From Chloroflexota bacterium (lineage in GTDB: Bacteria; Chloroflexota; Anaerolineae; J102): DNA of 49,887 bases. This document shows positions 1,756 through 11,835 of this stretch, in pieces. The position numbers were made by a program, and so were the translations under genes. The stretch is from assembly GCA_013151415.1 (NCBI GenBank), contig JAADII010000125.1:1-49887 (forward strand), read 5' to 3'. Under the pieces are notes generated by a model. The model did no database searches and had not been told where the DNA came from. It was given only the letters and a program-made list of their open reading frames with translations. Position 1 is the first letter of the stretch, and each line of letters begins with the position of its first letter.

Positions 1756-3858
1756 ATGCAACAATCATCTTACTTGACCGCGCTTTCGGCAAAATGGGGT
1801 TATTTCCTCGACCGCTGGCAACCGCCGGTGGAGGCCATCTTTTGGGGAACGGCCCTAATTGTTGGTCTGGCCACCGGTTTGGGAGCGGTGTTGGTCACCT
1901 ATCTGATTCGTAGCATCAATTGGGTGGGGTATCAATGGATTCCCGCTGCGCTGGACGGAGGGAAATGGTATGTGGTGCTGGTTCCGGCCTTTGGCGGCCT
2001 GGTGGCGGGCGCGCTCATCTATAAGTGGGCGGCCGAGGCCAAGGGACATGGCGTGCCCGAGGTGATGGAGGCCATGGCCCTGCGCGGGGGCCGCATTCGA
2101 CCCATCGTGGCCGTCATCAAGATATTGGCATCGTCGTTCACTATTGGCAGCGGCGGTTCGGCCGGTCGCGAAGGCCCCATCGTGCAGATTGGCGCGGGGC
2201 TGGGTTCGACGTTGGGCCAAGTCCTTAATCTTTCGGATGATCGCGTCAAAAACCTGGTGGCGTGCGGCGCGGCAGCGGGCATCGCGGCCACCTTCAATGC
2301 GCCCATCGCCGGCGTCATCTTTGCCCTGGAAGTGATCATCGGTCGTTTCACCACGCGTTACTTCGCGTCGGTGGTGGTGTCGGCCGTGGCCGCGGCCGTG
2401 GTGGGCCGCATCGCCTTTGGCGATCACCCAGCGTTCGCGGTGCCCACCGAATATGGCGTGGCCAGCTTGTGGGATTTTGTGTTTTACTCCATGTTAGGCG
2501 TATTGGCGGCCGTGGTGGGCGTGGCGTTTACGCGGTCGCTTTACGCGACCGAAGACCTGTTCGACAATTGGAAACGCGCGCCCGAATGGCTCAAACCCGC
2601 AATTGGCGGCATGTTGCTGGGCGTTTTGGCATTGGTTTATCCTCTGGTAACGCATCTCAACTGGGATGATCATACTCCTGAGATATTCGGCGTGGGTTAC
2701 GCCATCATCGAAGCGGCCTTGGCCGGACGAACGTTATTGACCGCAGCCATCTTCTTATTGCTTCTCAAACTCGTTGCCACCAGTTTGACGCTGGGATCGG
2801 GCGGATCGGGCGGCGTGTTTGCGCCGGGACTGTTCATGGGCGCGATGTTGGGCGTGGCCTTTCAGCAAAGCATGGCTCACTTCTTCCCCAATGCCATCGG
2901 GCCCACGGGCGCGTTCGCGTTGGTGGGCATGGCCGCGGTGTTTTCGGCCGCGGCCCACGCGCCCATCACCGCGGTGCTCATGCTCTTCGAGCTGACGGGC
3001 GATTACCGCATCATCCTGCCCCTTATGTTAACCGTTGTCATCGCCACGCTCCTTTCGCAGCGCATGATGAACGGCGAATCCATCTACACGCTCAAGCTCA
3101 CCCGCCGCGGCATCCGCATTCGCGAGGGCCGAGATGTGGACATCATGCAAAGCGTCACCGTGGGAGAAGTGATGACCACCGACGTGGCCACCGTTCCCAC
3201 CAACATGACCCTTCCCGAGCTGGCCGACGTCTTTGCGCGCACGCGGCATCACGGCCTCATGGTGCTGGATCGCGAAGGCAATCTCTGGGGCATCGTCACC
3301 GTCACCGATCTGGATCGAGCCATTCGTGAAGACCGGCCTCGTAGCACAACCGTGGCCGAGATCGCCACGCCCTATGAACGGCTGCGCTTCGCTTATCCCG
3401 ACGAACCCATGGGCGACGCGCTTGCTCGTATGGCCAACCGCGGCCTGGGACGCATGCCCGTGGTCGCGCGAGAGGATCCGCGACGACTGCTGGGCGTGAT
3501 CCGGCGTTCGGACATCGTGGAGGCGTATCGGCTGGCGCGCACGCGGCGCGCCGAGTTGCAATATCGCGCCCAACGCGTGCAACGCAAATCGCCGGATGGC
3601 ACCGAGTTCATCGAATTGCCCCTGCGCGAGGGCGACGCCGCGGTGGGCAAGACCCTGGCCGAAGTTGCGAAAGACCTGCCCAAGGATTGCGTGTGCGTTT
3701 CCATCCGTCGCGATGGCCGGGTGATCATCCCGCATGGCGACACGGTGTTTCAGCCGGGCGATTCGGTGACCGCGTTCGTCAGCGCCAGGGATGTGGAGAA
3801 GCTGTTTCACGCCATGTACGGCGACCGCGCGGTTGGCGCGATCCGCGAGGCGGCATGA
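1756..3858 (+). CDS. ClC-family chloride channel/antiporter with CBS pair and RCK-C tail
   Basis: This 700-residue integral membrane protein has all ClC signatures: GHGVPE near 97-102, GSGGSAGREGP at 131-141 (gating Glu139) and GSGGSGGVFAP near 350. By hand alignment to E. coli ClcA, the proton-pathway Glu203 position falls on Val193 (ALEVII), as in ClC channels. Two CBS domains (about 455-590) and an RCK-C domain (about 600-690) make up the cytoplasmic half. A weak GAGAGG lies 9 bases before the ATG. The gene is the full-length paralogue of the preceding one and overlaps the following MFS gene by 4 bases (ATGA), so those two are probably translated together. Substrate and gating ligand are unknown. 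Confidence 0.94.
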   Translation: MQQSSYLTALSAKWGYFLDRWQPPVEAIFWGTALIVGLATGLGAVLVTYLIRSINWVGYQWIPAALDGGKWYVVLVPAFGGLVAGALIYKWAAEAKGHGVPEVMEAMALRGGRIRPIVAVIKILASSFTIGSGGSAGREGPIVQIGAGLGSTLGQVLNLSDDRVKNLVACGAAAGIAATFNAPIAGVIFALEVIIGRFTTRYFASVVVSAVAAAVVGRIAFGDHPAFAVPTEYGVASLWDFVFYSMLGVLAAVVGVAFTRSLYATEDLFDNWKRAPEWLKPAIGGMLLGVLALVYPLVTHLNWDDHTPEIFGVGYAIIEAALAGRTLLTAAIFLLLLKLVATSLTLGSGGSGGVFAPGLFMGAMLGVAFQQSMAHFFPNAIGPTGAFALVGMAAVFSAAAHAPITAVLMLFELTGDYRIILPLMLTVVIATLLSQRMMNGESIYTLKLTRRGIRIREGRDVDIMQSVTVGEVMTTDVATVPTNMTLPELADVFARTRHHGLMVLDREGNLWGIVTVTDLDRAIREDRPRSTTVAEIATPYERLRFAYPDEPMGDALARMANRGLGRMPVVAREDPRRLLGVIRRSDIVEAYRLARTRRAELQYRAQRVQRKSPDGTEFIELPLREGDAAVGKTLAEVAKDLPKDCVCVSIRRDGRVIIPHGDTVFQPGDSVTAFVSARDVEKLFHAMYGDRAVGAIREAA

Positions 3859-5078
3859 GCCATTTCGCCCTTTATCTCAATTCTCTAAAATCGTTGCCGC
3901 GCAACGTGTGGGCGTTGTCGCTCACCAGTTTTCTGCGCGACATCGCCAGCGAGATGCTCATTCATTTGCTGCCGCTGTTTTTGGCCAATGTGCTGGGGGT
4001 GCGCCTCAGCATTGTGGGGCTTATCGAGGGCGTGGCCGAGACCACATCCAGCCTGGTGAAGGTCTATTCGGGCTGGCTTTCGGATCGGCTGGGCCGACGC
4101 AAAGGACTGACCGCGGCCGGTTATGGCGTGGCCGCGCTGGCCATGCCCCTGTTGCTGATCGCGCGCAGTTGGCCGGCCGTGCTGGTCTATCGTTTCATCG
4201 ACCGCGTGGGCAAGGGCATACGCACCGCGCCCCGCGACGCGCTCATCGCGGACGCGGTCTCCACCGAACAACGGGGCGCGAGCTTTGGCTTGCACCGAGC
4301 AGCCGACACGGGCGGCGCGTTCGTGGGTTTGCTCATGGCCATGTTCATCGTGTGGCGCGTGCAGTTGGGCGAGATTCATCTTCAGCTCGAGACCTTTCGC
4401 GTGGTGGTGGCCTGGGCCATGATCCCGGCTTTTCTGGCCGCGCTGGTGGTCGTGGTGGGGGTGAAAGAGATGGGCAAACCCCGCCCCGCGCAAGCGCCTC
4501 GTTTCACGCTGCGCGGGTTCGAGCGGCCCTTTCAGCGTTTTTTGGTGGTGATGGCGCTCTTCACCCTGGGCAACAGCACGGACGCGTTTCTGATCCTGCG
4601 CGCGCAGACGACCGCCGCGTCGGTGCTCATGATCCTGGCCATGCTGGCCGCGTTCAATCTGGTCTATTCGCTGTTGGCCGGACCGGCCGGAGCGCTGTCC
4701 GACCGCGTGGAGCGTCGCAAAGTGATCGTTGGCGGCTGGCTGCTCTATGCGCTGGTCTATGTAGGCTTCGCGTTCGCGCAACAGACATGGCAATTCTGGC
4801 TGCTCTACATGGCGTATGGGGTCTATTACGCGCTGACCGAGGGCGTGGGCAAGGCCCTGGTGGCCGATTTCGTCCCCCAAACCGAGCGCCGCGGCGCGGC
4901 TTATGGCGTCTATAATGCGGTCATCGGTCTCACGCTGCTCCCGGCCAGCGTGATTGCTGGCGCGCTGTGGCAAGGCGTGGGCGCATGGATGGGCTTTGGC
5001 CCGGCCGCGCCATTCCTCTTCGGCGGCGCTTTGGCGCTGATCGCGAGCGCGTTGTTGTGGTGGTGGGTGGGGGAGTGA
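3855..5078 (+). CDS. Major facilitator superfamily transporter
   Basis: The ATG at 3855 overlaps the stop of the upstream ClC gene as ATGA. The frame is open further upstream, but that part would lie inside the ClC gene and looks like shadow coding. The 407-residue product has about 12 hydrophobic segments and a typical MFS loop 2-3 motif, GWLSDRLGRRKG (about 73-84), with a similar GALSDRVERRK after helix 8. It belongs to the drug/metabolite-efflux-like MFS proteins, and no substrate can be assigned. Its coupling to a chloride transporter is suggestive but unexplained. Confidence 0.9.
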   Translation: MSHFALYLNSLKSLPRNVWALSLTSFLRDIASEMLIHLLPLFLANVLGVRLSIVGLIEGVAETTSSLVKVYSGWLSDRLGRRKGLTAAGYGVAALAMPLLLIARSWPAVLVYRFIDRVGKGIRTAPRDALIADAVSTEQRGASFGLHRAADTGGAFVGLLMAMFIVWRVQLGEIHLQLETFRVVVAWAMIPAFLAALVVVVGVKEMGKPRPAQAPRFTLRGFERPFQRFLVVMALFTLGNSTDAFLILRAQTTAASVLMILAMLAAFNLVYSLLAGPAGALSDRVERRKVIVGGWLLYALVYVGFAFAQQTWQFWLLYMAYGVYYALTEGVGKALVADFVPQTERRGAAYGVYNAVIGLTLLPASVIAGALWQGVGAWMGFGPAAPFLFGGALALIASALLWWWVGE

Positions 5079-5688: not shown

Positions 5689-6585
5689 TCAGCCTTGATA
5701 CAAATCGCGAAACTCGTCCAGCGTCTTCACCGAAAGCAATGCGTCGCGCAAGATGCGCAGCACCTGGATGTCCTCGATCTCGCGTATCTCGCGCATCAGT
5801 TTCAGGCCTTCAGCATTGAAGCGCAGATTCAGGCCCAAAGCAATCGCATCCAACAGGCCCTGGCGCAAGCCTTTTTCCAGCCCCTCCTCCATCCCCTCCT
5901 CGCGGCCTTCTGCGCGACCTTTCTCGAACCCCTCTTCCCATCCTTCTTTTTTGATGAGCTCGTAGCCAATGGATTCCATCATGATATCCCTCCTGCGATT
6001 CAGCATCTCTTGCGCCAACCGGCCCGACACCAGACCGGCCAGCAATGTCATGGTGGTCAAAATGTCGCCTTTCACTTCGCGCGACAGTTCACTTTCCACT
6101 ATCAGCCGCTCTGCCTCCTTCGCCATGTCCACGCCATGTCGCATCAACGGCGTCATAGGCAGCAAACATAACAACCGCTCGCCAATAATCTCGGCCGCAT
6201 CCATTTCGTAGATGCGAATCAGCCGAAAACGATAACGCACTTCGACATCTTCATACACATCCGTGGCAATGGCCGATGGCCGCAGCAAGATCACGAAAGT
6301 GTAGACCTCGTCGATCTTCTCCCTCAGCTTGTGACGCATCCGATATTCCAGTAACCGCGCCGGCACATCGGGATGCCAATGCGTCTGGAATTCGAGGATG
6401 ACCAAAATCTGCTTGCCATCTTCGCGGGTGACAAGAAACACGAAGTCGCTGCGGCGCAGACTGGTGGTCTCTTGCGGTCGTTCTTCCAACAAGATGCTTT
6501 CGGCTACGGGAATGTCCAGCAAATGGCGCAGGATGGCCTCGCTGCAATGCCGAAAGAGTTCCTTGAGCGCGATGTCGTATTTCAT
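5689..6585 (-). CDS. Rpn-family (PD-(D/E)XK-like) recombination-promoting nuclease / putative transposase
   Basis: The 298-residue soluble protein starts MKYDIALKELFRHCSEAIL, as Rpn/YhgA-like proteins do. A nuclease core is suggested by RSDFVFLV followed by ILVILEFQTHWHPDVPARL, where Asp and the ExQ motif fit the PD-(D/E)XK pattern. The C-terminal region (about 215-245) is a highly charged stretch of EG-rich repeats (EEG, EKG, REEG) and probably forms a coiled or extended linker. Rpn proteins are DNA endonucleases linked to RecA-independent recombination, and related proteins spread through mobile contexts. No transposon ends were found. No clear Shine-Dalgarno sequence precedes the ATG. Confidence 0.8.
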   Translation of the reverse strand: MKYDIALKELFRHCSEAILRHLLDIPVAESILLEERPQETTSLRRSDFVFLVTREDGKQILVILEFQTHWHPDVPARLLEYRMRHKLREKIDEVYTFVILLRPSAIATDVYEDVEVRYRFRLIRIYEMDAAEIIGERLLCLLPMTPLMRHGVDMAKEAERLIVESELSREVKGDILTTMTLLAGLVSGRLAQEMLNRRRDIMMESIGYELIKKEGWEEGFEKGRAEGREEGMEEGLEKGLRQGLLDAIALGLNLRFNAEGLKLMREIREIEDIQVLRILRDALLSVKTLDEFRDLYQG

Positions 6586-7820: not shown

Positions 7821-8438
7821 TTATGAACGATTGAACTGAATGCGGCGTTCGTTGCCATGCCATAGGCGCACGAAGTTGGGCCGCAAAGAATAGCCGATCA
7901 TAATGAGCACGGCCACGCCAAACACAATATGCCATAGGGGCGTCTTCGCCGGATCGAGAAAGTAAAAGAGCGTTAGCAAAACTGTGGCGCCCACCGCCAC
8001 GCTGAATGTGGCCACCGATGCATACCGCACAACAAGAAGTATGGCGATGAAAATGGGAAGAAGGATGAAACCAACCACAGGATTGAGCGTAAGCAATGCG
8101 CCCGCGGCCGTGCTTCCGCCCGCGCCACCGCGAAAAGCGAGAAAAACAGACCAATTGTGCCCAAAGACGGCGAACGCGCCGGCCAAGGCCGCGGCCGCTT
8201 CGTGCCCAAATATCGCTCGCGCCAACCACACGGCCAACGCGCCCTTGAGCAGATCGCCCAAGCCGGTGAGGACGCCGTATCGAATACCCAAGGCGCGGAA
8301 CACATTGGTGCCGCCCGTGCGGCCGCTGCCATGTTCGAGCACATTAACGCCTTTGGTGCGACCAATGAGATATCCGATGGGGATGCTGCCAATGAGATAA
8401 CCGAGCAACATGGCAAGAGGATAAGCGTACCAGGGCAT
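7821..8438 (-). CDS. plsY: Glycerol-3-phosphate acyltransferase PlsY
   Basis: The start at 8438 (MPWYAYPLAMLLGYLIGSIP) has AAGGAG about 6 bases upstream, so it is preferred over an in-frame codon 14 residues earlier. The 205-residue polytopic protein shows the PlsY motifs: GSIPxGYLIGR near 17-27, the glycine-rich GSGRTGGTNVFRALG (about 38-52), KGALAVWLA, and AVFGHNWSVFLAFRGGAGGSTAAG (about 87-110). PlsY transfers the acyl group from acyl-phosphate to glycerol-3-phosphate, the first step of phospholipid synthesis in most bacteria. The plsX partner is not in the window. Confidence 0.95.
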   Translation of the reverse strand: MPWYAYPLAMLLGYLIGSIPIGYLIGRTKGVNVLEHGSGRTGGTNVFRALGIRYGVLTGLGDLLKGALAVWLARAIFGHEAAAALAGAFAVFGHNWSVFLAFRGGAGGSTAAGALLTLNPVVGFILLPIFIAILLVVRYASVATFSVAVGATVLLTLFYFLDPAKTPLWHIVFGVAVLIMIGYSLRPNFVRLWHGNERRIQFNRS

Positions 8439-8877
8439 AGAAAACTCCTTTTCCAAGTGGAAGTGATTTTTGAAGCCCACCGCGCCGCCTCATCAATGAC
8501 GTCCGGGGCCTTATGTCGAAAAACCGAACGAGAAGGCGAAGGCGCGATGGGCGCTCGACCGCGAAAAAGCATTCACGAATGCACAACGCCAAAACCTGGG
8601 CCAGGGATGCCAGGTGCAAAAGGAGGTGGATTGCAAGCGTGCATGAAACATGCAACCAACTGATTATAACCCATGAACCCGCGAAAAGATGCGATCTGAG
8701 ATCAGGAAAATCGAGCTGCGCGTCCATCTTTTGCCAAAGAGGGCTTTTATGGTAAGATCAGGTGCGAAAATATGTTCTAAACCATGTCCGTCCACCTCGT
8801 AACACACGCCCCCAACTTGCTTTGCCGCCAACTCATTGCCGCGCTTGCGCGGCGTCCGGCGTCTTTTGCATTGAACC
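8439..8877. other. Divergent intergenic region between plsY and nurA
   Basis: No gene is supported in these 439 bases. On the minus strand a TATAAT lies at 8663-8668 without a convincing -35 and could serve plsY. On the plus strand there is a better promoter at 8731-8758. GCCGCG-CTTG-CGCGGC, a perfect 6-bp hairpin, is at 8838-8853, 24 bases before the nurA start. TGCATGAAACATGCA near 8640-8654 is another short inverted repeat. Confidence 0.5.
8731..8758 (+). promoter_or_regulatory. Predicted sigma70 promoter of nurA
   Basis: TTGCCA (8731-8736), a 16-base spacer, then TAAGAT (8753-8758) preceded by TGG, an extended -10. This would give a leader of about 110 bases containing the 8838-8853 hairpin. 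Confidence 0.45.
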
Positions 8878-10074
8878 ATGCTCGAATTACGTAAACTGCT
8901 GGCCCATGTCGAGGCCATGAGCCGCGAGATGGCCGCGCGGCAACGAGATTTCGCGTCCAGAATAACCGAGGCGAGAGAGAAACTGGCCGCGCTGGCGCAG
9001 GTGGATGAAGTCATGCAGGCGAAGATCGAGCAGGCGCTAAGCGTAGACCCCACCTGGCGCGGCGCACAACCGGTGAGCGCCCGCCTGGATGAACGCCATC
9101 AGCCCGATGGTGATGCAACGCCGGCGACGCTCATCGCCGTGGACGGTTCGCAAATCTACCCGGATCGTCACGGTCTGGCGCTTTACTATCTCATCAACAT
9201 CGGCTCCATCATCTTGCGCCAGGGCACGGGCGAAGCGCCGCAAACCGACACCCAACCCACCCTCTACTTCCTGGAAGAAGACATCTACAACGATGGGGGC
9301 GATCTGGTGACCGCGGGTGATGTCAACGCGCGTCGCGAACAGGCCGAACTAAAGATGCTGGCCGAACTGGCTCGCGAAGAACGCGGTTATTGGGGCGGAG
9401 ACCTGGACCGGCTGATCGTGGCCATGACCGACGGGCCTTTGCTCATCTGGATGGGCGAGACCGATATGAAGGACCCCGCGGCCAAAGCCCACATTCAAAC
9501 CTATATCGCTCAACTGCAAGCCATCCAGCAAAGCGCCGCGATCCCGATTGGGTATGTCGATCGTCCGCGTTCGGCCAATGTGCTGCGCTTGCTCCATGTG
9601 ATTCAGCTGGACCCAACCGAAATCAGCAAAGAACGCGTGCGTCAGACCTGCTATCAGGGCATGACCGACCGTCTACTCTTTCAAGACCTGAAGCCCAACC
9701 AACGTTCGGCCATCTTCGCCGCGACCACGCGTATCAATCGTGAGTTTTTTCGCGCCGCGGGTCAGGAGATCCACTTTTTCTATCTCAACGTCGCGCAAAA
9801 GAAGGGCGAAGAGCATGCTCGCATCGTGCGCGTGGACGCGCCGGCCTGGGTCACGGGCCAGCCTTCGTTACTGGATCGAGTGCAACAGGCCATCTATGAA
9901 GATTGCCGAGGAACCGAGCACCCCTATGTGTTGGCCCGCGCCCATGAGCTGGCCGTGGTCACTTACGCCGAGCGTCGCGATTTCGAACAAACTTTGGCCG
10001 CGGCGCTCATACGGCAAGACCTAACGCCTGAACCCTCGCGTAAAGCCTGGCTCAAATGGTTGATGAGCGGATAA
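8878..10074 (+). CDS. nurA: NurA-domain 5'-3' nuclease
   Basis: The 398-residue protein has the NurA fold markers: LIAVDGSQIYPD (about 85-96) with catalytic Asp89, and IVAMTDGPLLIWMG (about 180-193) with Asp185, both lying on predicted metal-binding strands. The N-terminal 60 residues are helical, probably a coiled coil. NurA is a manganese-dependent single- and double-strand nuclease that in archaea works with the HerA hexameric helicase in DNA-end resection, and some bacterial HerA/NurA pairs act in phage defence. Here the next gene is a HAS-barrel-like protein and no HerA ATPase is present. No Shine-Dalgarno sequence precedes the ATG. Confidence 0.9.
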   Translation: MLELRKLLAHVEAMSREMAARQRDFASRITEAREKLAALAQVDEVMQAKIEQALSVDPTWRGAQPVSARLDERHQPDGDATPATLIAVDGSQIYPDRHGLALYYLINIGSIILRQGTGEAPQTDTQPTLYFLEEDIYNDGGDLVTAGDVNARREQAELKMLAELAREERGYWGGDLDRLIVAMTDGPLLIWMGETDMKDPAAKAHIQTYIAQLQAIQQSAAIPIGYVDRPRSANVLRLLHVIQLDPTEISKERVRQTCYQGMTDRLLFQDLKPNQRSAIFAATTRINREFFRAAGQEIHFFYLNVAQKKGEEHARIVRVDAPAWVTGQPSLLDRVQQAIYEDCRGTEHPYVLARAHELAVVTYAERRDFEQTLAAALIRQDLTPEPSRKAWLKWLMSG

Positions 10075-10159
10075 GACGAGGGCCAGTTTCCTAGATTTCG
10101 GCAAAAAACTTCTGGAAAAGTTGCACATTGGATACGACTCTTTTCTTTGGAGGCGCTGT

Positions 10160-10792
10160 ATGACCGACGCCCAACTCCTTGGCCGCGTATTGCGCAGCGC
10201 GACCGGAGTATTCACCTTTGGTTGCACCCAAAACGAAGAAAACATCCCCCAGTTCGGCCAGCCGGTGCGCGCGGCCGGGGCAGACGGCGATGTATATGGC
10301 CTGGTGTATGAAATAATCATCCAGGATGACCCCTTTGTGCGGCAAATCGTGGCCGCGTCCGACAGCCTGACGCCCGAACGCATCGAGGACATGCGTCAAC
10401 GCCGTCAGGTTCCGGTGGAGGTGAGCGCGCTGGCCGTGGCCTATCGGCGCGGGGAGCTAGTGCGACAGGGCGTTCCTCCGCGTCCGCCGGCTGCGTTGCG
10501 TCGGGTCTTTGCCTGCAATCGAGGCGAGGTGGATGAGGTTCTGGGCAGGGGTGGGTTTCAATTCATGCGCATCGCGCTCAACCATGCCCAATGTCCGGCC
10601 GAAGACTTGCTGGTGGCAAGCCTGGGTTGGGTGGCGCAGTGCCGGCCGCCCGGCCAGGAGCAACCCTATCTTGTCGAGGCTGGTCGCGAGCTCACGCGGC
10701 TGCTGGCCCATGATCCCCTCCGTTTGGACGCGATTTTGCGCGGATTGGCCGATCTAACCGCGGAGGCTCAAGCCGCAAGCCGCGGTTGGTGA
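10160..10792 (+). CDS. Stand-alone HAS-barrel-like protein next to nurA
   Basis: The start at 10160 (MTDAQLLGRVLRS) follows GGAGG with a 6-base gap. The 210-residue product begins with a probable small beta-barrel: LLGRVLRSATGVFTFGC, then DVYGLVYEIIIQDDPFVRQ (about 45-65). This resembles HAS-barrel (HerA/ATP synthase barrel) proteins known from cyanobacteria. A middle segment, RQVPVEVSALAVAYRRG, is followed by a helical C-terminal half. There is no P-loop, so this is not a full HerA. It lies 85 bases after nurA on the same strand and probably shares its transcript. The family call is from memory of similar proteins; the NurA partnership is inferred from position. Confidence 0.6.
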   Translation: MTDAQLLGRVLRSATGVFTFGCTQNEENIPQFGQPVRAAGADGDVYGLVYEIIIQDDPFVRQIVAASDSLTPERIEDMRQRRQVPVEVSALAVAYRRGELVRQGVPPRPPAALRRVFACNRGEVDEVLGRGGFQFMRIALNHAQCPAEDLLVASLGWVAQCRPPGQEQPYLVEAGRELTRLLAHDPLRLDAILRGLADLTAEAQAASRGW

Positions 10793-10917: not shown

Positions 10918-11835
10918 TTACGCCAGTCGAATCCGAAAGAAGAGCCAGGGCGCGACGCCGCTAATAACCAGACCCACCAGCATATAGCGAATCAGGCGCA
11001 GCCCCTGTTCGAGCCAATACGCGCCGCCCAAAGAAGCGAAGGCGAATGAGAGACCAAAGTAGACCAGCGCCACCAGGACCATGCCCACCACATAACGCGC
11101 AATGCGTCTCGGCCAGGAGCCGCTTACCTGAAAATGAAGACGCCGATGATCCCATATCAGGCCCAGAAACAGCCCCATGAGCACGCCCACATTGCTCACG
11201 GCCGAGGACGCAGGACGATTTCCCTCCCAATCGCCGGGGAAAATGAGCAAAACCAACGCGGCCGCGACAAAAACCGCGACAATCTGTCGCGCGGGCGACC
11301 AGGAGAGAACGGTCGGCTCCAGACGGGGGAGAAGGCGCATAATCACCCACACGGTGAACAACCCTACCAGCCATCCGCCCACCACATCGGCGGGAAAATG
11401 CACGCCCAGATACATGCGCGAAAAGCCAATGGAAAGAATAAGAACAATGGCCGCGATGGTGAACCAGGTCTGGCGCGCGAGGCGGGCCAGCGTCCCAAAT
11501 ACGGCCATGGATGAGGACGCATGCGTGCTAACGAAACCGGGGCTGGTCTCCTCCCACAGGCGCTGCACCGGCGGCGAAGCCGGTCGCGGCAGACGAAATG
11601 TCCATTTGATGAAATCGCCTATGAGCACCGAGAATAACAGCGCCAGGCCCGCGAGCGCGCCCCAACGCTTGTTCACGGCCCAATAGAGAAAGGGAAAGAA
11701 GAAAAGATAGCCAAATTCCGACCCCAACCAACTCATCAACATCATATAGCCATCCAGAGCCGGGTTGCGAAAGCTCTGAAGCCAGAGAAGAAAGGGGATG
11801 CTCGCGTCGTTGAGAGTTTGAATCCAATCGCCCAT
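10918..11835 (-). CDS. PAP2-family membrane phosphatase
   Basis: A 305-residue integral membrane protein with the three acid-phosphatase motifs: KWTFRLPRP (about 94-102), FVSTHASSS (about 120-128, in place of the usual PSGH) and SRMYLGVHFPADV (about 154-166). About eight hydrophobic helices are present, with a C-terminal membrane extension beyond the core. PAP2 enzymes dephosphorylate lipid phosphates such as phosphatidate or undecaprenyl pyrophosphate at the outer face of the membrane. The exact substrate cannot be told. It is transcribed alone, after a spacer that contains a dispersed repeat. Confidence 0.9.
   Translation of the reverse strand: MGDWIQTLNDASIPFLLWLQSFRNPALDGYMMLMSWLGSEFGYLFFFPFLYWAVNKRWGALAGLALLFSVLIGDFIKWTFRLPRPASPPVQRLWEETSPGFVSTHASSSMAVFGTLARLARQTWFTIAAIVLILSIGFSRMYLGVHFPADVVGGWLVGLFTVWVIMRLLPRLEPTVLSWSPARQIVAVFVAAALVLLIFPGDWEGNRPASSAVSNVGVLMGLFLGLIWDHRRLHFQVSGSWPRRIARYVVGMVLVALVYFGLSFAFASLGGAYWLEQGLRLIRYMLVGLVISGVAPWLFFRIRLA

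Follow-up and report, generated by a model that had tools for sequence, protein, structure and literature searches.

Here we report a locus from a Chloroflexota bacterium (Anaerolineae) in which the gene of a NurA nuclease is followed by that of a small protein that, judged by profile comparison, carries a HAS barrel on its own. The window, i.e. the whole stretch of DNA analysed, comprises 49,887 nucleotides (contig JAADII010000125.1 of assembly GCA_013151415.1), and the nearest named relatives found for its source are Caldilineales/Caldilineae MAGs. In HerA, the HAS barrel is normally the N-terminal domain of the ATPase. The locus contains the following features:

8878..10074, + strand: nurA, encoding a 398-aa NurA nuclease (PF09376, 1.8e-22 over residues 84-361)
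10149..10153, + strand: ribosome-binding site GGAGG, 6 bases 5' of the ATG at 10160, by sequence reading
10160..10792, + strand: gene of the stand-alone HAS-barrel protein (family A1; 210 aa, no Walker A), present once in the genome
10160..10534, + strand: HAS-barrel domain by profile comparison, approximately residues 1-125, with the homology to HerA strongest in profile columns 25-124
10325..10402, + strand: putative loop and alpha1 element of the barrel (QDDPFVR...LTPERIEDMRQ), approximately residues 56-81
10520..10783, + strand: C-terminal domain of predicted helices, approximately residues 121-208, where HerA has its RecA-like ATPase

The NurA domain of the 8878-10074 product scored 80.5 bits in a Pfam profile search (cut-off 21), and this single-copy gene is the sole NurA match in the source genome (G000). 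The barrel gene starts 85 bases after nurA. The two genes look like a two-gene transcription unit because the flanking genes, a plsY-like gene (7821-8480) and a PAP2 phosphatase gene (10918-11835), are both on the opposite strand; the phosphatase gene is the downstream neighbour, and no herA adjoins the pair. The ORF coordinates and a motif scan confirmed the original prediction of a nurA gene followed, 85 bases on, by a gene for a P-loop-free protein of 210 residues.

Elsewhere in the window, two tandem chloride-channel genes (31-1668 and 1756-3858) each encode CBS and TrkA_C domains. The end of the second is overlapped by a 374-aa ORF (3791-4915, + strand) that had no Pfam match and may not be a real gene. 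A 298-aa protein encoded at 5689-6585 on the - strand has a series of EGxEKGxxEGxEEG repeats near the C-terminal end and only a weak match to Yae1_N; we take it to resemble the Rpn/PD-(D/E)XK type.

Profile and structure comparisons

Searches with the window's barrel protein alone returned nothing from Pfam or NCBIfam and no meaningful match in the PDB, as would be expected if it were not a HAS barrel at all and its neighbourhood incidental. At the level of the family, represented by 74 near-complete members from relatives (13-63% identical to the window protein), the search was positive. The HAS-barrel model PF09378 was matched by 10 of the 74 members at E<=0.01 (best 3e-5) and was by far the commonest Pfam match, the next family being matched by two members; an NCBIfam search with the barrel family returned no named model. 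PF09378 is insensitive in this clade, because, of 22 unquestioned Chloroflexota HerAs used as a yardstick, just 12 matched it at the same threshold, and the HerA of the window's own genome did so at 8.8e-5.

When the HerA HAS region was aligned by hhalign to the barrel columns of the family profile, the score was 37.9 (probability 83%, 98 columns), a value reached by none of 300 column shuffles (mean 12.1, SD 2.2, maximum 21.2); the reversed profile scored 14.5. The full-length profiles of the barrel family and HerA aligned with an E value of 1e-5 and a probability of only 62%. The best PDB match of the family profile was the N-terminal domain (6-140) of the HerA-like protein TdpA (E 0.13), and a Foldseek search with a weak structure model (pLDDT 55) ranked HerA 8wld first (E 0.15), with F1-ATPase chains lower down; each of the two matches is insignificant alone, yet they agree. 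The structure models were of low confidence (pLDDT 55 at full length, 46 for the barrel alone) because the alignments held just four close sequences, and the fold assignment therefore rests on the profiles. Further structural alignment of the model covered mainly the helical part and gave nothing above noise level.

By this profile evidence, the N-terminal 125 or so residues are homologous to the HAS barrel of HerA, which upholds the assignment originally proposed. That the protein has another fold and stands beside nurA by chance is hardly credible: the shuffle control strongly disfavours it, and the PF09378 matches, the agreement with TdpA and the linkage across many families are also contrary to it.

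Outside the barrel, the family departs from HerA. A Walker A motif was found in none of 97 barrel family ORFs, compared with all 60 HerA ORFs, and a Pfam search detected no DUF87 (RecA-like) match in the window protein or its family. The C-terminal helical part (approximately 80 residues) did not resemble HerA when profiles were compared; its predicted helices (residues 121-200) reached a block pLDDT of about 55-84 within the low-confidence model. No fusions of the barrel to NurA or HerA were seen among the family ORFs.

In Deinococcus and Thermococcus, NurA docks on the HAS domain of HerA, two NurA to six HerA (PMC9960219, PMC12977600), and Thermococcus HerA contacts NurA by alpha1 and the preceding loop (W76, L77, D91, Y95; PMC12977600). 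In the barrel family, conservation is 86% at D57, 84% at R61, 73% at E73 and 78% at R82. When the two alignments are compared by eye, the loop and alpha1 of the barrel (D57, R61, E73) look like the counterpart of the NurA-binding element of HerA.

Gene order and co-occurrence

The neighbourhoods of the barrel gene were surveyed at 97 loci of Chloroflexota. The commonest arrangement was nurA-barrel-herA (42 loci); the barrel gene adjoined only nurA at 23 loci (the window included), only herA at seven and neither at six, and contig ends truncated the remainder. On both sides, to nurA as well as to herA, the median gap was 6 bases, and the nurA-only loci were scattered over many families of relatives. 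The predicted conservation of the nurA-barrel pair is borne out by this survey, and herA in relatives usually lies directly after the barrel gene. Co-expression of the barrel gene with its partners is not obligatory, because six loci have neither of them adjoining.

The original prediction also described the pair as having no HerA ATPase, which holds for the locus and fails for the genome. G000 (97.7% complete) encodes one complete HerA with DUF87, HerA_C-like and HAS-barrel matches (C161:56818-58635); its gene lies well inside a 79-kb contig and is followed by a gene for an Mre11/SbcD-like metallophosphoesterase (L076:6681-7931). In the window's genome, herA has relocated and the barrel gene is still with nurA.

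An mre11 gene also adjoins the set in several relatives, in the order nurA-barrel-herA-mre11 or with mre11 upstream of nurA (L149-L151). This linkage, together with that to herA in the window's genome, would suit a barrel protein that binds DNA or directs NurA-HerA to breaks through its helical domain, with Mre11 as one possible intermediary, and lies away from the NurA interface; small beta-barrels of the HAS type have indeed been proposed as DNA-binding modules in BrxHI (PMC12839542). Since linkage to mre11 was limited to some twelve collected loci and was much rarer than linkage to nurA or herA, we regard such a role as improbable.

Two further kinds of loci were observed in the collection. 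A divergent HerA subfamily (L148-L153), approximately 20-23% identical to the HerA of G000, follows a divergent barrel protein, together with nurA where the contig allows. Second NurA-like genes (G032:C23:18781-20813, G029:C1:2686723-2688419 and G044:C88:5450-7031) each have a different DUF87 ATPase as neighbour and no reported barrel gene; they possibly represent a separate transfer or defence pair.

Among 400 Chloroflexota genomes, 219 carried the barrel gene, 236 NurA and 216 both; the genomes are related and not phylogenetically independent, so that a Fisher value overstates the association, while the spread over many families is independent of that value. HerA was encoded in 215 of the 219 barrel-bearing genomes: a strict search detected it in 148, and a broader profile recovered it in 67 of the 71 others. 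No relatives were found among plasmid and viral contigs, and a scan of the genome collection returned close relatives only. The survey covered Chloroflexota, and the family may extend beyond this phylum.

These counts bear on another option of the original prediction, namely a separate nuclease complex of NurA and the barrel protein. Such a HerA-independent complex would agree with the 23 loci, the window among them, at which herA is not near the pair; against this stand the 215 barrel-bearing genomes that encode HerA, that of the window included, and the commonest layout, in which herA completes the set. NurA is moreover a single-copy protein in the window's genome and would have to serve both complexes. 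A HerA-free complex is accordingly unsupported and, in our judgement, very improbable.

Tree distances were compared across 44 loci with all three genes, the split set of G000 being counted as one. The partial rank correlation between barrel and NurA given HerA was 0.71 (0.59-0.79 in subsamples), and that between barrel and HerA given NurA was 0.30; this ranking survived dereplication and removal of the divergent clade, although the loci are not phylogenetically independent.

The closer tie to NurA is what one would expect of the main rival to a subunit at the NurA/HerA interface: a regulator specific to NurA (an inhibitor, a chaperone or a storage partner) that grips NurA in the manner of HerA before HerA is loaded and leaves once the active complex forms. 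Its divergence would then track that of NurA more than that of HerA, and a split operon would keep the barrel gene with nurA, as is seen at 23 loci, roughly three times the number at which it remains with herA (7). The frequent three-gene layout and the near-universal presence of HerA in barrel-bearing genomes are also compatible with a permanent subunit, and we consider a transient regulator a serious but rather unlikely alternative.

Proposed role

On balance, and with modest confidence, we favour the view that the barrel protein is a HerA-derived HAS subunit that lacks the ATPase and is a regular third component of NurA-HerA in Chloroflexota, adapting or gating NurA where it meets HerA. Of the options originally considered, an adaptor that lets NurA dock on a remote HerA fits best, given the consistent presence of HerA and the prevalence of the nurA-barrel-herA order. 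We infer the physical binding, the position in the complex and the adaptor or gating function from the homology and the genomic associations.

According to this proposal, the barrel protein would keep the domain that HerA uses for holding NurA, with the helical domain replacing the motor. It would bind NurA most likely via the loop and alpha1, and would load the NurA dimer onto the six-fold HAS ring of HerA, or space or restrain it there. In the window's genome, HerA would be supplied from the second locus, beside the mre11-like gene. A more specific version can be offered only tentatively: the NurA-HerA complex of Chloroflexota might have three kinds of subunits, with an ATPase-less HerA paralogue at the interface between nuclease and pump, or replacing some positions of the HAS ring, that resolves the 2:6 symmetry mismatch or switches NurA on and off.

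Relation to known systems

The free barrel resembles the HAS-barrel domain of HerA (PF09378) in having a homologous barrel by profile and the same partner gene, nurA, but differs in being a separate 210-aa protein with a different, helical C-terminal domain and neither P-loop nor RecA-like ATPase. The window's genome encodes both a free barrel and a complete HerA with a barrel of its own. The defence pairs SIR2-HerA and DUF4297-HerA, as well as TdpA, are similar in that an ATPase with a HAS barrel is combined with a partner enzyme; to our knowledge, none of them has a free barrel subunit. PADLOC models gave no match for the window's NurA or barrel protein.

Archaea, Deinococcus and Thermus have NurA-HerA complexes for DNA end processing (PMC9960219, PMC12977600, PMC5448004), whose genes share with the loci described here the neighbouring nurA and herA and the sometimes adjoining mre11. 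The described complexes consist of two kinds of subunits (two NurA and six HerA), whereas the commonest Chloroflexota layout has a third gene between nurA and herA. The function of NurA-HerA itself is disputed in recent work (PMC12977600). No description of a free HAS barrel with NurA was found in the literature searched; the 2004 survey of the FtsK-HerA superfamily may mention such genes, and we do not claim priority.

This study gives a name to a protein family that is nameless in Pfam and NCBIfam, and indicates that the NurA-HerA machine of Chloroflexota probably has a third, undescribed part. The family bears on the question of how a NurA dimer with two-fold symmetry is seated and controlled on a HerA pump with six-fold symmetry. 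A widespread, separately encoded docking barrel suggests that evolution has split docking from pumping in one phylum, and the free barrel would provide a simple handle for testing the two apart.
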